This document shows, piece by piece, positions 30,711 to 38,693 of a stretch of 64,000 nucleotides of DNA. A program made the translations under genes and the position numbers. Source of the DNA: Gardnerella vaginalis ATCC 14018 = JCM 11026 (GTDB taxonomy: Bacteria > Actinomycetota > Actinomycetes > Actinomycetales > Bifidobacteriaceae). The notes below the pieces were generated by a model. The model saw only the letters and a list, made by a program, of their open reading frames with translations. It had not been told where the DNA came from and did no database searches. Where the stretch lies: assembly GCF_001042655.1 (NCBI RefSeq), contig NZ_AP012332.1:1426001-1490000 (forward strand), given 5' to 3'. Position 1 is the stretch's first letter. Each line of letters opens with the position of its first letter.

Positions 30711-31808
30711 TCATGCAGTGCGACGAGCTAAAACATCTCGCAAATCAGCTTTTCCTAATGAATCTTCAGTAATAACTGGTGGTTCCACATTATTATCGGA
30801 AGCTTCTTTAGTAGAAAGCGGTTTTTTAGCTGAAATTGCCTTAGCAACCTGCTTAGTGGACTTTATTTCCAAGCTTAACGGACCATTATTCTTGTCATTT
30901 GAAGAAGATTCTGTAGAATCAGACCCAAACGAGAAAGATATTAAATCTTGATGAGATTCAGACGAATCAGACGCGCCAGAAGAATCAGATACATCAGGCA
31001 AAGACGATGACTGATTACCAGCAGATACATAACCATTAGCATTCTGCGAATTGACGCGTTCTAAAGCCATACTAATTTCACGCTGCTGCATAACAGAAGT
31101 TTCTGTATTGTCTTGAGTATTCGACGAATATTGTGTAACAGAACCTGATGAATAATTTTGATACTCTTCTTCATGAGCTACAACAGAATTGACAATTGCG
31201 TCAAAAACTGGTTCCACAATAGATTCACTAGATTCGCCATAACCTTTTTTACCATAGTTTTGCGGCACTCCAGCAGATTTGTTATAAGCAGCAACGCGCG
31301 CTTCCCAATCTCGCGCATGCTTTGCCGCAATATAGCCAAAGTAAAGAACTGTTGACACCATAGCGAATGGTATAAGAGCGAACCAAGCAGAATATAATCC
31401 AGACAAACCAGCTACAAGAACCACAAGTGTCAAGAAAACAAGCGAAAAAACCAAAATACGGCGACGACGAACCGCAGCGCGACGAAGAGCACGAATACGA
31501 GCCACATGTTGCGGAGTAAAATTATCTCTTAACACCTTTGACTTATTGCTCTTATTTTTAGTGTTCTTATTTTTATTCGATCGCTTCTCTGACGGTTGCA
31601 TTCCAACCCCTTTCGCCATCGCACCACTACACTCATGGAACAGCGAGGCACTACGCTCATCCACAATATGCAGCGAAGGTGAATACCTATCTTCGCTGTG
31701 CTCCAACATTGACTTCATGCTGTTAACAGTGCGCTTAGGCAACCAACCAAACATTAAGGCTATGATGATAATTAATACAATTAACGCACTCACCGATTCA
31801 TAACCCAT
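30711..31808 (-). CDS. Uncharacterised membrane protein with long cytoplasmic tail
   Basis: 365 residues, no family recognised. A hydrophobic segment opens the protein (about 6-24: VSALIVLIIIIALMFGWLP). A Lys/Asn-rich linker (KRSNKNKNTKNKSNKSK) leads to an Arg-rich patch and two close hydrophobic segments at about 121-140 and 143-163. The remaining 200 residues are polar and Ser/Asn-rich, probably disordered. It is divergent from the fmdB-type gene and its start has no clear Shine-Dalgarno. The layout resembles conserved actinobacterial envelope-linked proteins of unknown role. Confidence 0.75.
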   Translation of the reverse strand: MGYESVSALIVLIIIIALMFGWLPKRTVNSMKSMLEHSEDRYSPSLHIVDERSASLFHECSGAMAKGVGMQPSEKRSNKNKNTKNKSNKSKVLRDNFTPQHVARIRALRRAAVRRRRILVFSLVFLTLVVLVAGLSGLYSAWFALIPFAMVSTVLYFGYIAAKHARDWEARVAAYNKSAGVPQNYGKKGYGESSESIVEPVFDAIVNSVVAHEEEYQNYSSGSVTQYSSNTQDNTETSVMQQREISMALERVNSQNANGYVSAGNQSSSLPDVSDSSGASDSSESHQDLISFSFGSDSTESSSNDKNNGPLSLEIKSTKQVAKAISAKKPLSTKEASDNNVEPPVITEDSLGKADLRDVLARRTA

Positions 31809-32342: not shown

Positions 32343-33014
32343 ATGAGCATGATATCAATATTAAAAAACACATCTAGCACGCATGATACGCACGAGAATC
32401 AAGTGCCAGCCATGCTTTTAAAACGCAGGCAGAAAGCACTTTTGTTAAATGCACTTACCATATTTTTTATTAGCGTTGCAACACTTATTGCAATAAATAT
32501 GATTACGAGCTGTCAAGAAACGCAAATCATACCTGTAGCAATTAGAGATATATCTAAAGGCACTCTTATTAAACAAGATGATTTGTCTTATGTTAACGTG
32601 CCCAAAAACAGTGTTTTTAATCATGTTATTAACAAAGATTTGATCAAAAATGCTATTATCGCAACCTGCAATATCAAATATGGTATGCCTATCTTTACTA
32701 GTCAGATTACGCAACAAGCAAAAATTCCACCAGGATTCACAACGATTTCAATAAAACTGGCAAGCAACAACCAAGATTTAAACATTGGAGAAAATATTTC
32801 GATAGCATTTAGCAAAGTTTCAAGAGGAGATCACAACGAGAATGACATTGTTCAAGAAAATAAAAACATTTCTTTTATCCACGATGTAATAGTAGTCAAA
32901 ACAGGCAATTCATCTCAAAACGCGTTACTAGCCATGCCTGCAGAGTCTGCGTTACAGATAATAAATACACAATCTATTATTCCAAACCTTGCGGTTATTG
33001 CAATACGAGGATAA
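32343..33014 (+). CDS. SAF-domain protein, CpaB/RcpC-like
   Basis: 223 residues. One membrane segment at about residues 35-52 follows a basic stretch (LLKRRQK), then a SAF domain: IIPVAIRDISKGTLIKQDDLSYVNVP, GMPIFTSQITQ. This resembles CpaB/RcpC-type proteins of Flp pilus assembly and free-standing SAF proteins of actinobacteria. No pilus genes adjoin it, so the role is open. The start sits directly after a hairpin; a later ATG at residue 24 (MLLKRRQK) is an alternative. Confidence 0.75.
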   Translation: MSMISILKNTSSTHDTHENQVPAMLLKRRQKALLLNALTIFFISVATLIAINMITSCQETQIIPVAIRDISKGTLIKQDDLSYVNVPKNSVFNHVINKDLIKNAIIATCNIKYGMPIFTSQITQQAKIPPGFTTISIKLASNNQDLNIGENISIAFSKVSRGDHNENDIVQENKNISFIHDVIVVKTGNSSQNALLAMPAESALQIINTQSIIPNLAVIAIRG

Positions 33015-33249: not shown

Positions 33250-36200
33250 TCACTGATCTTCACCATAAAGCTCGCCTATTCTAGAAACAACCCGCTCAAC
33301 CTCTTTTTCAGGATTTACGAATGCTCCAACGCTCCAAACATTCATAACAGACCAGCCAAGATACTCCAAATCTTGCGCAAACATGCGATGACGTTCACGC
33401 GTTGATTCTATATTCATGAATCTCATATCATCCGTTAAAACAGCAAGAGCAAAAGGCTTATCTGGCAAACCAACAACAAGAGGAATACTGTGTTCCTTAT
33501 CAAATCCGTAATTCACCGCTACGCACAATCCGCGAGCGCGAATACGATCCGCCAAATCAGTAAACAAAACATTATTAAAACTGTCTACTGAAGAATCAAA
33601 AGCCTCCGCACGCGCATCTGCAGCTTCTGCCTTATTTTCTGCCTTATCTTGATCATATTCAGGTTTTGCTTCATCAAAATCAGTTGGATTTACTGGACTA
33701 TCATCCAACTGCTCAGCCCAAATAAGCAATTCTTTAAGCAGCTTAGGACCATCCTGATGCAAACGTTCATCTTCCATATCACTAGATTTAAACGCGCAAA
33801 CAATATCTAAATTTCTACGAGCTAATGCTAACGAATCAAGAAGTATGCCCTTACCGCCTTCTTCTTCCAAAACACCAAATTGTTGCAAAAGCCTACCGTG
33901 AGAAGTTTTTGCATAGCATAAGGAAAGAATAACATCCGTAGCGGCAGCACCAACAGACTCACTAGCATCTACAAGACGAACATGGCGAAGGAATCTATTC
34001 ATATTTTCATCTTTAATAGCAAGAGCCTTAAGCTCCGCTCCTAAACGATTCCTAAACACACTCGTAAGAGTTACAACTGCAAGAACATAGCTGGAAGGAA
34101 CTACCGTGAAAGTCGTAGCACGCTGTTTTATCAAGGAAACAACTTCGTCAATTTCCCTCTGACTACTCTCAATCAAACCAGTAGACATAACAGGAACACC
34201 AGAAGCCTCAACTTGGTGAAGCTTAACTTTACCTTGCATTTTATCTACAGGAACATCGTGACGAAGCGAACCATACCCATGATTTTCAAGGAAATTGGCA
34301 AGACGAAGAGAACGCCTAGTAGCACGAGATTTAACATGTACAGAAGGCAAAACACTAATCAAATCGTTAACACTCTGCGAACTTACCGTATTCTTATGAG
34401 CAATGACCACAACTTGGCGAGCACGAGCGAGAATGCTAAGAAGCTCAATATTGCTCAAATGCTCAACAGAATCAAGGATCACAATGTCTACAATCGGCTT
34501 AAATTCAGTCATCATAGTCAAAGTAGAAGGCATAGCAACCATAATTGGCTTAGCAGCAAGAAGAAGATCTGCATGAGAATTCATCAATTTGGTAAAAGTC
34601 ACGCCAGAACTATTACTTGCCAGAGTTGTGTGAAGCTGATTAGCTTCCTGAGACCTAGAGAAAAGAAGTTCACACAAACGTTTTAAAGTCTCTTGTTGAA
34701 CCATAGGCCCCACAGAGCGCACATGCTCAGTATCTACCTGAACAAAACGGTCAGAAGCATCTTGCATAGCCGAACCATCTTGGTTAGAAATAATCGCGGA
34801 AGAATTAACGATATCTTCAAAAACCGTAGTCCACCAAGCCAAGTGAAGCTCACCATCTAACGCAGAACCAGTAACATTACGCCTACGCAAATCGCAAACA
34901 AGGTCTTCTAAACCAACACCGCGTAAATCGCGCTCAATCACACACCTACCAGGTAAAGTATCTAAGGAAGCACGATCGTCATGTAAAGCCTGCAAACGCT
35001 CATCAAGTTTAGTAAACTCAACATTTTCAAGATCAGCACCCAAACGCGTGGTGGAAAGAACAGCATCAAGAGCTACAAGATTACGATCCAAAAGCTCCTG
35101 AGTACTAACAATCTCATCTAACTTAGGCGGTAACACAGGCCACCCTCCATGAGGAACAAAAGTACGCCACTGAGCAGCTTGCTGAGCAACAATCTTCAAA
35201 GCCTCATGAAGATCATCTACTTTAGCTCCTACACGCAAAAGACTACGAGCTTCTTTAATATGACGTCTACGCTCCCAGAAGCCCATTACTGTACCTTCAC
35301 GCTTGCGAACAGCTTTAGGCTTACTTGCTTCAATCATCGCGCTAAGATCACGTTCAAAAATATCTGCTTGGAAAACATCTAAAACTCGGCGAAGATTCTT
35401 TAACACCGTAACCTGTCTACCCCATTCGCGTGCGGTAGCAGGAACAGGAAAACCGCAGTTTTGAACAGTTGATTTAACATGTTCGCGTGCTGCAGGAAGA
35501 AGCTTTAGTAGAACATCTACAACGCGCTGATATACAGCAACAGCCTCATTCTCATTGAACAAAGACGCGCCAAACCACGGGGTATCTTCAGGCTTTATCG
35601 TAAATTCTCCAAGCTCATCTGCTTGATGTAATTTTTGCGCCCATTCATCTAAATGACCAGAAAGCGATCTTGCAGCAGCAACATCTAGTCTTACATGAGT
35701 ACAAGGATGAGTAGGCAACATTGCAATAGCAGCAAGATTTTGCATTGTCTGATACGCTGACACACCCCAACGCTCATCTACTCCGTGCAAGTCTCCCAAA
35801 TAACGATTTAAGCGAGTTTTAACACCAACTAACTCGTCACAAACCTGCTCAAAACGGCTAGAAGCAACGCTTTGACGCGCCCCAACTGCAGCTATGAGCT
35901 GAGAATCCACATGTTTCGCAAGGTGAGAATCCGAAACGTCTAGCGCAAGCGAAGAAATCTCATTCGCACTAAGAGCATGACGGAATCGACGCTGTTGTTC
36001 CATAACATTTGGAACATATAAAATGGACTTTCCAGCAAGAACACAGCGTGAAGAAATCGCAGCCGCGATAGAAGCAGAATCAGATCCAGCATCCACGTCT
36101 AAAGCCAGAGAAACGCCATTAGCAGCTAAACCAGATGCATAACGTACAACATTATCTACATCACCGACTTCATATTCACAATGAGGGTCTACATCTAGAG

Positions 36201-37071
36201 GAGAATACTCTTGCCTATCATTTGCCGCCAACTCTTTAAGCGCACGCTCATCGCCAGCAACCGCATCAATCATAGTGTTTCCAACATTCCCAACTTTAAG
36301 CGCCTGCAAAATCTGAGCGCTTTCAGCCAAAAATCTGGATCCCGAATCAGTAAAACATCCAAGAACAATATCTCGTTCAATATCAAAATCTGGGAACACG
36401 CTGCGAGCAGATGCACAAATTGCATCAAAAACAGCTGACGTTTCTGGTGTTCCGCTTTCATAGTTTGCGCCGTCAAAAAGCGCATCTTCACTAAGATTCA
36501 CGCCTCTCTCTTGCAATCTAAGAACAAGAGCATGGTTTAAGCGCACATTGCCAGAAAAGTAGATTGTTGCGTATGTTTCATCCTTGCCAGAGTCTCGAAT
36601 AACTCGCACTGGGTATGTTAAAACTGGCACATGATTACCGCTCCACGATGCCACTCCAACAACAAGCGAAAGCTCCGAAACACCATTTTCGTGCGCCTTA
36701 TTATCTCTATCTTCAAAAACCCTGTCTAGTCTGCGCCCTGCCGCGCGCAACATTCCAGAATCGCGGAATAACGCCTGAAGAGTTACTTTTCCACTCGCAA
36801 AAAGTTGCGCTATCCCAGATGGGTGAGCATGCGTTAATTCTAATTGTGCGGAAAGTTTTGTTATGTCTTCAAGCGGCGAAGGCGCAAGCTGTGACTTGTA
36901 TTGTTCGCGCCAAGAGTTTATTCGCCTTAACTTTTCATCTCGCGAAGCTGTAGCCTGCGCACTTTCATGCTTTATTTGCGCATTCTGCTCGTAAGCTTCT
37001 TGATAATTTTGTTCACTCGCATTATGCGCTTGATTTACTTGGCTTATAAAATCATTCTGTTCGCCGCTCAT
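33250..37071 (-). CDS. Large DUF4011/SF1-helicase-like protein with degenerate ATPase motifs
   Basis: 1,273 residues, soluble. The N-terminal part resembles DUF4011 (LAPSPLEDITKLSAQLELTH, ARRLDRV-type AAGRRLDRVFEDRD, LSLVVGVASW). At the place of Walker A (about 318-335) it reads LALDVDAGSDSASIAAAI then GKSILYVPN, lacking GxxGxGK[ST]. The Walker B equivalent (about 858) is VDIVILDSVEHL in place of DEA. The C-terminal 75 residues (RERHRMFAQDLEYLGWSVMN region) resemble the REase-fold MTES_1575 domain, also without clear acidic active site. It likely works as a scaffold or binding protein. FHA gene upstream by 18 bases. Confidence 0.75.
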   Translation of the reverse strand: MSGEQNDFISQVNQAHNASEQNYQEAYEQNAQIKHESAQATASRDEKLRRINSWREQYKSQLAPSPLEDITKLSAQLELTHAHPSGIAQLFASGKVTLQALFRDSGMLRAAGRRLDRVFEDRDNKAHENGVSELSLVVGVASWSGNHVPVLTYPVRVIRDSGKDETYATIYFSGNVRLNHALVLRLQERGVNLSEDALFDGANYESGTPETSAVFDAICASARSVFPDFDIERDIVLGCFTDSGSRFLAESAQILQALKVGNVGNTMIDAVAGDERALKELAANDRQEYSPLDVDPHCEYEVGDVDNVVRYASGLAANGVSLALDVDAGSDSASIAAAISSRCVLAGKSILYVPNVMEQQRRFRHALSANEISSLALDVSDSHLAKHVDSQLIAAVGARQSVASSRFEQVCDELVGVKTRLNRYLGDLHGVDERWGVSAYQTMQNLAAIAMLPTHPCTHVRLDVAAARSLSGHLDEWAQKLHQADELGEFTIKPEDTPWFGASLFNENEAVAVYQRVVDVLLKLLPAAREHVKSTVQNCGFPVPATAREWGRQVTVLKNLRRVLDVFQADIFERDLSAMIEASKPKAVRKREGTVMGFWERRRHIKEARSLLRVGAKVDDLHEALKIVAQQAAQWRTFVPHGGWPVLPPKLDEIVSTQELLDRNLVALDAVLSTTRLGADLENVEFTKLDERLQALHDDRASLDTLPGRCVIERDLRGVGLEDLVCDLRRRNVTGSALDGELHLAWWTTVFEDIVNSSAIISNQDGSAMQDASDRFVQVDTEHVRSVGPMVQQETLKRLCELLFSRSQEANQLHTTLASNSSGVTFTKLMNSHADLLLAAKPIMVAMPSTLTMMTEFKPIVDIVILDSVEHLSNIELLSILARARQVVVIAHKNTVSSQSVNDLISVLPSVHVKSRATRRSLRLANFLENHGYGSLRHDVPVDKMQGKVKLHQVEASGVPVMSTGLIESSQREIDEVVSLIKQRATTFTVVPSSYVLAVVTLTSVFRNRLGAELKALAIKDENMNRFLRHVRLVDASESVGAAATDVILSLCYAKTSHGRLLQQFGVLEEEGGKGILLDSLALARRNLDIVCAFKSSDMEDERLHQDGPKLLKELLIWAEQLDDSPVNPTDFDEAKPEYDQDKAENKAEAADARAEAFDSSVDSFNNVLFTDLADRIRARGLCVAVNYGFDKEHSIPLVVGLPDKPFALAVLTDDMRFMNIESTRERHRMFAQDLEYLGWSVMNVWSVGAFVNPEKEVERVVSRIGELYGEDQ

Positions 37072-37089
37072 ACTACTAAACTCCCCTGT

Positions 37090-38526
37090 TTATAAACCTA
37101 CTGCGTTGCGGTAAGCGTTATACCCGCTATTTTGCGCTAAAGCTTCATCTACGTCTGCATTGCCTTGAGCTGAAAGCCAAGCGTATAAATCGTCATAAAG
37201 ACCTGTATTCATGGCTAAAAATGGAAGTAATTCTTGATATTTTGCTATCTCAAACTGTTTAGAGAAATCAGTGGTTTTCTGAGCTTCTTCCGAAGTGAAT
37301 CCACCTGCTTGTACAATTTCTTTATGCGCGTTGAATTCTCCATTTGACACTTTTTCGAACACAGACCCTGGTTCAAAAGCTGGAGTGTATTGCGAATCTT
37401 CTTGAATATTGACTGAATTGGATCGAATGAATTGTTCATGATTTAGTTGAATTTGAGGTTCATCTTGCAATGAATCGTCGGTTGCTGGCGACTCATCTTC
37501 TGTTCCATCTTGTAATTCATTCTCATCTTGATAATTGATTTGAATTTCTGCTATCTCCTCTTGTTCAGTATTCTGATCTTGCGTTGTGTGATCCTCGTTT
37601 TCAACATCTACATTTTGTGAGTACTGAATTTTAGAATCGTCTTGAACATCGTGAGAATCAAAAGAATCATTTGCAACAACACTGTTATCCACAATATTAT
37701 CTGGATTTACAGTTTCATCACTATTAGTTTTGTCACTACTAGCTTGTGCTGCATTAGCTTGTGCTGCATTAACTTGTGATGCATTAGCTTGTGCTGCATC
37801 ATCAAAAAGATTACGAGGTTCTGCAGCAGACTCAAAATCTTCACGCACAACAGGAAGAACAACCTGATTAGCAATCACGGGATCGCTTTGTTTTACAGGA
37901 TTTACTGAAATATCAGCCTTGCTTGCACTATAAACATCATCAGCTTTACCGGCAGCATTTAATTTGGACTGATTATCCCACACTAAATTAGGGTGTGAAA
38001 CAGATTGTGCACGGAAAACGCCTGTTGGCTCTCCAGCACGAATATCAAGAATATCATCGACCGACAAATCCGAAGCATCTGGCTCTTTAATGGAACCGTC
38101 AGCAGCATAAGAGAACAAGTCGCGTACAGGCTCCGCACTATTTTCAGCCAAAGGAACTGGCTCTTCTATACGCACAAAGTCAATTGGCACATCTCCAAAT
38201 TGCATGCGAACAATGCTATCTGGCATATGAAAATCAACATCTGGATCTAGTCGCAGCAAATCTCCGCTTTCGTTTACAAGATAAGTTCCGTTTGTAGAAT
38301 GCAAATCTCGAATAGTCGCCACGCCACTTGTGTCTACTATAAGAAGCGCATGCCTTTTAGACATTGAGCGCTTATTGTCTACAATGTCTACACGCATAAA
38401 ACCGTCTTCGCGCAAAGGTCGTATAGGCTTTCTGCCGATCTCCACAGACTGACCCGCTCCAACGCGCGCCTGCTCGACACCACCTACTGTAATCATCCAA
38501 CGCTGCAAGGTTTGTCGACTTCCCAC
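37090..38526 (-). CDS. FHA-domain protein
   Basis: 478 residues from a GTG codon (VGSRQTLQRWMITVGG) with GGAG 8 bases upstream; the frame extends only 9 codons further. The FHA domain is in the first 140 residues: SVEIGRKPIRPL, then SMSKRHALLIV and RDLHSTNGTYLV, which hold the phosphothreonine-binding Arg, Ser and Asn. The rest is acidic low complexity (Asn/Asp/Gln/Glu) with a short ordered C-terminus from about 420 (EIAKYQELLPFLAMNTGLYD). It should read a Ser/Thr kinase signal and probably partners with the large protein downstream. No kinase gene is nearby. Confidence 0.9.
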   Translation of the reverse strand: MGSRQTLQRWMITVGGVEQARVGAGQSVEIGRKPIRPLREDGFMRVDIVDNKRSMSKRHALLIVDTSGVATIRDLHSTNGTYLVNESGDLLRLDPDVDFHMPDSIVRMQFGDVPIDFVRIEEPVPLAENSAEPVRDLFSYAADGSIKEPDASDLSVDDILDIRAGEPTGVFRAQSVSHPNLVWDNQSKLNAAGKADDVYSASKADISVNPVKQSDPVIANQVVLPVVREDFESAAEPRNLFDDAAQANASQVNAAQANAAQASSDKTNSDETVNPDNIVDNSVVANDSFDSHDVQDDSKIQYSQNVDVENEDHTTQDQNTEQEEIAEIQINYQDENELQDGTEDESPATDDSLQDEPQIQLNHEQFIRSNSVNIQEDSQYTPAFEPGSVFEKVSNGEFNAHKEIVQAGGFTSEEAQKTTDFSKQFEIAKYQELLPFLAMNTGLYDDLYAWLSAQGNADVDEALAQNSGYNAYRNAVGL

Positions 38527-38693
38527 GGAACCTGCTCCCTTCAAAAAACACACTACATACTATTGTGTCATGCTTTGTGTATATTGCGCGAATCGACAAC
38601 TCCGAGCTGCATAATGCGCGAGATCACCTCGATTCGCTGAGTCTATTAGAGCAGAAGCAATAGCTTGCGTTATATTTGTAGCTCACATGATGC

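Follow-up and report, generated by a model that had tools for sequence, protein, structure and literature searches.

What can a very large protein do when it is laid out like a helicase-nuclease and the catalytic residues of its ancestors are gone? We addressed this question in Gardnerella vaginalis ATCC 14018 = JCM 11026, using a window of 64,000 nucleotides (NZ_AP012332.1, positions 1,426,001 to 1,490,000 of the forward strand), in which an open reading frame (ORF) of 1,273 residues, hereafter the giant, begins 18 bases downstream of an ORF for a protein with a forkhead-associated (FHA) domain, as an initial annotation of this DNA had described. That annotation gave the FHA protein 478 residues; the frame is the same, with a longest ORF of 487 residues, and 478 corresponds to a later start. 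The giant is the single match in its 1,667,406-base genome, and its nearest named relatives are in Gardnerella species. The best explanation overall, to which we give a probability of about one half, is that it is a vertically inherited, dead DUF4011-type superfamily 1 (SF1) helicase-nuclease which serves as a scaffold tethered by the FHA protein. Its pseudo-enzyme status and the FHA pairing are well supported, and the protein is near-universal and strongly constrained in a major gut and vaginal family, the Bifidobacteriaceae.

Catalytic sites and fold of the giant

Residues were counted in an alignment of the window giant and 80 named Bifidobacteriaceae loci (81 rows); the loci are the top 80 among 522 retrieved with a single peptide pattern and so lean towards close relatives. 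As had been proposed, VDAGSDSASIAA and ILDSVEHL occupy the columns of GPPGTGKSQTIA and FDEASQ, the Walker A and Walker B motifs of intact relatives. The column of the Walker A lysine holds S (38 rows), T (35), A (5) or G (3), with lysine in 0/81; at Walker B, D867 is kept in 81/81 rows, while the glutamate column (868) is A in 65 and S in 16, with glutamate in 0/81, so the motif loss is common across the Bifidobacteriaceae. In motif VI (TRAR in intact relatives) the first arginine is replaced by L in 79 rows and V in 2, and the second is kept in 11/81, the window included. The C-terminal domain with a restriction endonuclease (REase) fold was likewise said to lack an obvious acidic active site, and its acidic columns are indeed altered: the first aspartate column (1197) is P in 81/81 rows, column 1212 is E in 5/81 and D1214 is kept in 81/81. 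The family copies do not show the MTES_1575 acidic pattern of aligned intact relatives (D, then ExD), whose residues we take to be catalytic. Other positions are fixed, including H871 beside the old Walker B and T1213 (both 81/81), and R1225 and R1229 (80/81, the remaining row being a gap); D1214, R1225 and R1229 are also present in relatives outside the family. A 21-row alignment of the family together with six lysine-less relatives has 45 invariant columns, and none of them is a catalytic residue of Walker A or Walker B. An intact Walker A elsewhere in the window giant was rejected, as no [AG]xxxxGK[ST] occurs in it, and chance matches in other rows fall outside the site. The most conserved blocks of 25 residues (lowest entropy at 551-575, 601-625, 401-425 and 426-450) sit in a helical insert between both lost motifs.

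The giant evolves as a constrained gene. The ratio of nonsynonymous to synonymous substitution rates (dN/dS) is 0.018-0.232 over 16 pairs, in seven of which (five with the window, two others) dS exceeds 1 and is near saturation; between the window and locus L102 it is 0.057 at the former P-loop region and 0.037-0.044 at the inserts. The frame is open in 79/80 named loci, and the remaining one (L156, 6001-11358) is interrupted by an assembly gap, with 4,047 N in the locus, which explains its odd length. Thirteen stop-flagged matches among those listed in the family survey were considered as decayed genes and rejected, since all 13 are open over 1,200-1,215 residues and the stop lies outside the gene. 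Thus neither result that was to speak against a pseudo-enzyme, an intact Walker A elsewhere or broken frames, appeared where we looked. Judged from these alignments, the giant is very probably a maintained pseudo-ATPase.

An AlphaFold2 model and structure comparison place the helicase core in SF1B, Upf1/Dna2-like, with the RecA-like core fold of SF1 helicases; AddAB (4cei, 4ceh) and mycobacterial HelD (8qn8, 6yxu) are among the SF1 structures matched and rank under Upf1, Dna2 and Ighmbp2. For the REase part the structural test was slight, because in most rows VIA-align spanned model residues 1-1068. By profile, MTES_1575 (PF18741; 39.8 bits, cut-off 38.2) is the sole Pfam domain above cut-off; no Pfam match to DUF4011 (PF13195) was obtained in the window giant up to E 1, and none to HEPN, transglutaminase or wHTH is listed. 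The relatives L075 and L058 have DUF4011, AAA_11, AAA_12 and MTES_1575 (DUF4011 with 47.5 bits in L075 and 21.7 in L058, cut-off 22.2). Against NCBIfam, the giant scores 167.6 bits with ProA (NF058533) and 33.1 bits with Hhe (NF042953), which do not reach the cut-offs of 1500 and 2000; a PADLOC scan gave PDC-S37 with 168 bits and Hhe with 26.6 bits. A PDB sequence search yielded one match (E 0.21), rejected as a direct relative. The insert modelled alone is helical and has no confident PDB match (Foldseek best E 0.25), a long helical model being a weak test. Alignment, structure and selection together agree with the layout first put forward, DUF4011, SF1 helicase and REase fold in a maintained pseudo-enzyme.

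Descent and distribution of the giant

In other Actinomycetes, the motifs of the relatives grade from intact GPPGTGKS/DEAS to full erosion, with lysine-less P-loops in between. Twenty-nine relatives from outside the family were aligned (the loci of the best among 54 matching genomes of the class sample): five retain GPPGTGKS (L053, L055, L058, L059 and L075) and 24 are without the Walker A lysine, 21 of these retaining PGTG (LPGTGGTQT, PPGTGQTQT, APGTGRTQT). At three additional loci, L097-L099, the lysine position is occupied by V, R and R. In a tree of 36 rows rooted with three far DUF4011 proteins (from Pseudoalteromonas, Halomontanus and Thioclava, all with GPPGTGKS), the intact rows are basal, the lysine state is explained by one change, and the P-loop is most eroded on the branch of Actinomyces oris, L051 and the Bifidobacteriaceae. 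The family locus L042 splits off outside the remaining family rows; its placement and that of L073, both on long branches, are unsure in this quick search. A first tree without outgroup, also a quick search, placed the intact rows within the remaining ones, and the rooted tree is preferred. The Thioclava gene (L193, 1596-7427) is a plasmid gene for a DUF3320 protein near serine/threonine kinase, PP2C phosphatase and type VI secretion genes.

Gene order links these copies. Of 20 loci compared from outside the family, 16 have at least one of mscL, SAF, 5-formyltetrahydrofolate cyclo-ligase, GNAT and glp together with the giant; mscL is found in 13 of the 16, each time convergent with the giant (a weak match at L092, at 4.4 kb in L099). 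Because four copies with intact Walker A (L082, L084, L087 and L088, the last by mscL alone) and twelve lysine-less ones share this neighbourhood, the dead and living proteins look orthologous, and the giant is apparently an ortholog of intact enzymes. The neighbourhood was not seen at L081, L083, L094 (intact L075) and L098. In Actinomyces oris a 415-kb record carries the giant and the genes for mscL, SAF, cyclo-ligase, glp and GNAT one after another, with a SAF arrangement similar to the window's; this record (L182, NZ_CP116225.1) is labelled plasmid and may be a chromid, or part of the chromosome under a wrong label. SAF genes also lie beside several giant relatives in other families. The flanks of the 80 family loci contain genes for SepX-like proteins (72), groES (68), GNAT (60), cyclo-ligase (55), SAF (45), mscL (19) and glp (0), counts that are lower bounds as flanks extend at most 6 kb.

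Matches to the giant were found in 143/151 family genomes sampled (128/130 of the more complete ones) and in 55/296 genomes of the class sample, a count that takes in the window's genome. A mobile origin was rejected: phage sequences gave no match, and only one of 30 matching plasmid records matches over at least 80% of the query, the 15 listed being mostly DUF4011/DUF3320 proteins.

The FHA-LRV partner

In the partner, an FHA domain (PF00498; 34.9 bits, cut-off 20.7) is N-terminal and an LRV_2 domain (39.2 bits, cut-off 27) is C-terminal. Its alignment shows conserved IGRKP, SMSKRHA and STNG, which hold the GR, S-H and NG residues that we take to be the phospho-threonine (pThr) binding signature. 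The linker is variable, mostly acidic in the six rows measured, with short motifs conserved within it, including SVDDILDIRAGEPT and an FEPGSVF region. Since the genome holds five Hanks-kinase matches, phospho-threonine ligands are plausible. A second LRV_2 match above cut-off lies elsewhere in the genome, in a 109-residue frame (G000:C1:194550-194714).

The FHA-LRV gene is directly upstream of the giant in 80/80 named family loci, with junctions of -4 to +33 nucleotides as measured from the start codon nearest the FHA stop, and a 4-base overlap in 34/80. Outside the family no FHA domain was found near the giant in any of 20 genomes, each of the 114 FHA places lying on a different contig or at a distance of at least about 290 kb, and an FHA gene beside the giant was also rejected at seven loci whose upstream gene was scanned. 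Within the family, the upstream gene of the divergent L042 is not FHA, and that of L033 has FHA and LRV_2. Sixteen family genomes were searched for the FHA protein: it is present in 3/3 with a normal giant, and at most one weak partial match each was obtained in eight without the giant and in five with only a divergent or fragmentary one. Both genes are missing from two fairly complete genomes of the eight, G007 (99% complete) and G056 (95%). In L042-L044, G003 and G009, which belong to the family, the giant is highly divergent or is matched only weakly, and the FHA partner was not found. As the partner stands at the family loci and none was found near the giant in the 20 outside genomes, the pairing seems to have arisen within the Bifidobacteriaceae. 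Linkage, co-occurrence and the conserved signature uphold the FHA coupling that had been suggested, and the two proteins are likely to form a functional pair. PMC4921777 mentions a protein with an FHA domain that has an insertion in the Scardovia clade, and this could be the FHA-LRV protein.

Coordinates are collected in Table 1. The small third gene that was said to follow encodes the SAF-domain protein; it lies outside the operon, being convergent on the opposite strand.

Table 1. Features of the giant, its FHA-LRV partner and two neighbours (window positions)
Feature	Positions	Strand	Basis
Giant, 1,273-residue pseudo-helicase/pseudo-nuclease	33250-37071	minus	ORF; MTES_1575; SF1B fold
Eroded Walker A VDAGSDSASIAA, giant residues 326-337	36061-36096	minus	aligned with GPPGTGKS of intact relatives
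All-helical insert with most conserved stretches, giant residues 401-850	34522-35871	minus	entropy blocks; model
Eroded Walker B ILDSVEHL, giant residues 865-872	34456-34479	minus	alignment
MTES_1575 REase-fold domain with altered active site, giant residues 1172-1265	33277-33558	minus	Pfam; alignment
FHA-LRV partner protein, 487 residues (or 478, later start)	37090-38553	minus	ORF; Pfam
FHA domain with conserved, presumed pThr-binding signature (GR, SMSKRH, STNG)	38272-38439	minus	Pfam; alignment
Short motif SVDDILDIRAGEPT, conserved within variable linker; candidate docking motif	38023-38064	minus	alignment
LRV_2 domain, C-terminal in FHA protein	37129-37296	minus	Pfam
Neighbour, SepX/GlpR-like divisome membrane protein, divergent, under NCBI cut-off	30711-31808	minus	NF050099
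Neighbour, SAF-domain (CpaB-like) protein, 223 residues, convergent with giant	32343-33014	plus	ORF; profile scans

Possible functions and known systems

We propose that the giant descends vertically from a DUF4011-type SF1 helicase-nuclease that lost catalysis, and that its helical insert and helicase body would hold nucleic acid or a partner molecule without hydrolysing ATP. The FHA-LRV protein, made together with it, would tether it through the conserved linker motifs to a phospho-threonine that a Hanks-type kinase has set, the most likely carrier being a protein of cell division or of the cell envelope. We consider such a phospho-dependent scaffold role slightly more likely than not. DNA protection or envelope control had been guessed at earlier; the neighbourhood would point rather to a SepX/GlpR division cluster. 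Division is suggested by the SepX/GlpR-like neighbour (NF050099, 42.2 bits, E 8.9e-11; all four families listed are SepX/GlpR models), and a role there is tentative. The Bifidobacteriaceae tested keep this gene at the locus though a Glp/MoeA-like gephyrin was not found in them. Glp and glpr genes co-localise in Actinobacteria and co-occur when present, according to PMC10522489. A rather speculative extension is that the family retained the SepX/GlpR-like protein and lost Glp, and that the FHA-guided dead helicase-nuclease took over part of Glp's job, linking chromosome or Z-ring to the envelope under Ser/Thr-kinase control; if true, it would be a phospho-regulated nucleoid-divisome coupler evolved from an anti-phage-type enzyme.

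Several observations weigh against this account. The invariant D867 and the new, equally invariant H871 could form an unusual ligand or metal site, and the motif VI arginine R1085 is retained in the window giant. The SepX/GlpR match is below its NCBI cut-off of 150 bits. A gene neighbourhood is weak evidence of function, and none of mscL, cyclo-ligase and GNAT is a division gene. A Glp/MoeA-like protein was not found in 9/9 Bifidobacteriaceae genomes (G000 and eight others) and was found in 9/9 others, in a search that did not tell true Glp from other MoeA forms; this weakens a simple Glp-GlpR story, and also suggests the bold idea of a replacement of Glp by the FHA-giant pair. Some family genomes have neither the giant nor the FHA gene, so the pair is not indispensable everywhere; 11 of the 13 family genomes without the partner are 57-89% complete, and part of the co-absence may thus be missing sequence.

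Among other explanations, ATP-free handling of nucleic acid, as a pseudo-helicase subunit of a multi-enzyme complex, like AddB, or by HelD-like binding of RNA polymerase with FHA only adjusting it, is possible though unlikely: the body is conserved and AddAB and HelD are matched, but they rank below Upf1, Dna2 and Ighmbp2, fold alone shows no function, and the genes recognised next to the giant include none for polymerase or recombination. Somewhat less probable is a dead sensor for phage or DNA surveillance, derived from Hhe/ProA-type enzymes and signalling via FHA; the best family matches are anti-phage models (ProA, PDC-S37, Hhe) and plasmids carry relatives, mostly DUF4011/DUF3320 among those listed, yet the ProA and Hhe cut-offs are far off, and the presence in nearly all family genomes, the recurring position among housekeeping genes and the lack of any phage match fit a sensor poorly. 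The invariance of D867, H871, T1213, D1214, R1225 and R1229 would suit a repurposed enzyme with a new active site, which we consider improbable, as Pfam and NCBIfam scans gave no other enzyme family, D1214, R1225 and R1229 also occur in relatives outside the family, and the invariance may be structural. Slow decay of a leftover with no present function would account for the stepwise erosion and for the 8/151 family genomes without a match, but with frames open in 79/80 loci and all 13 flagged genomes, and with such low dN/dS, it is highly improbable.

Nothing recognisable as the giant/FHA gene pair, and no role for it, was found in the open-licence literature searched. Like the Glp-GlpR/SepX division module (PMC10522489 and PMC8748795, whose main texts do not contain the word helicase), the giant lies in the common neighbourhood with a SepX/GlpR-like gene nearby; unlike that module, it comes without a detected Glp/MoeA-like protein in the Bifidobacteriaceae tested. 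Its C-terminal domain passes the Pfam cut-off of the MTES_1575 family, a domain described in PMC3710099, and differs in the altered acidic columns and in having no listed HEPN, transglutaminase or wHTH match. Its FHA partner, found beside it only inside the family, offers a testable link to Ser/Thr-kinase signalling. The giant keeps a helicase fold without ATPase, as do AddB and RecC, which we take to be pseudo-helicases. The same can be said of Deinococcus PriA, reported as a pseudo-helicase (PMC4504706), but the giant comes from a different family and has an FHA partner, and no recombination or restart partner was seen. Over the aligned length its domain order is that of the DUF4011/SF1 helicase/REase-fold anti-phage proteins Hhe, ProA and PDC-S37, from which it differs in the lost key catalytic residues, the missing DUF4011 match, its recurring core locus and its FHA partner and, as regards the Hhe and ProA models, in its scores far below cut-off; with intact, intermediate and eroded copies in one neighbourhood, it gives a stepwise view of how a defence-like motor enzyme may become a structural protein.
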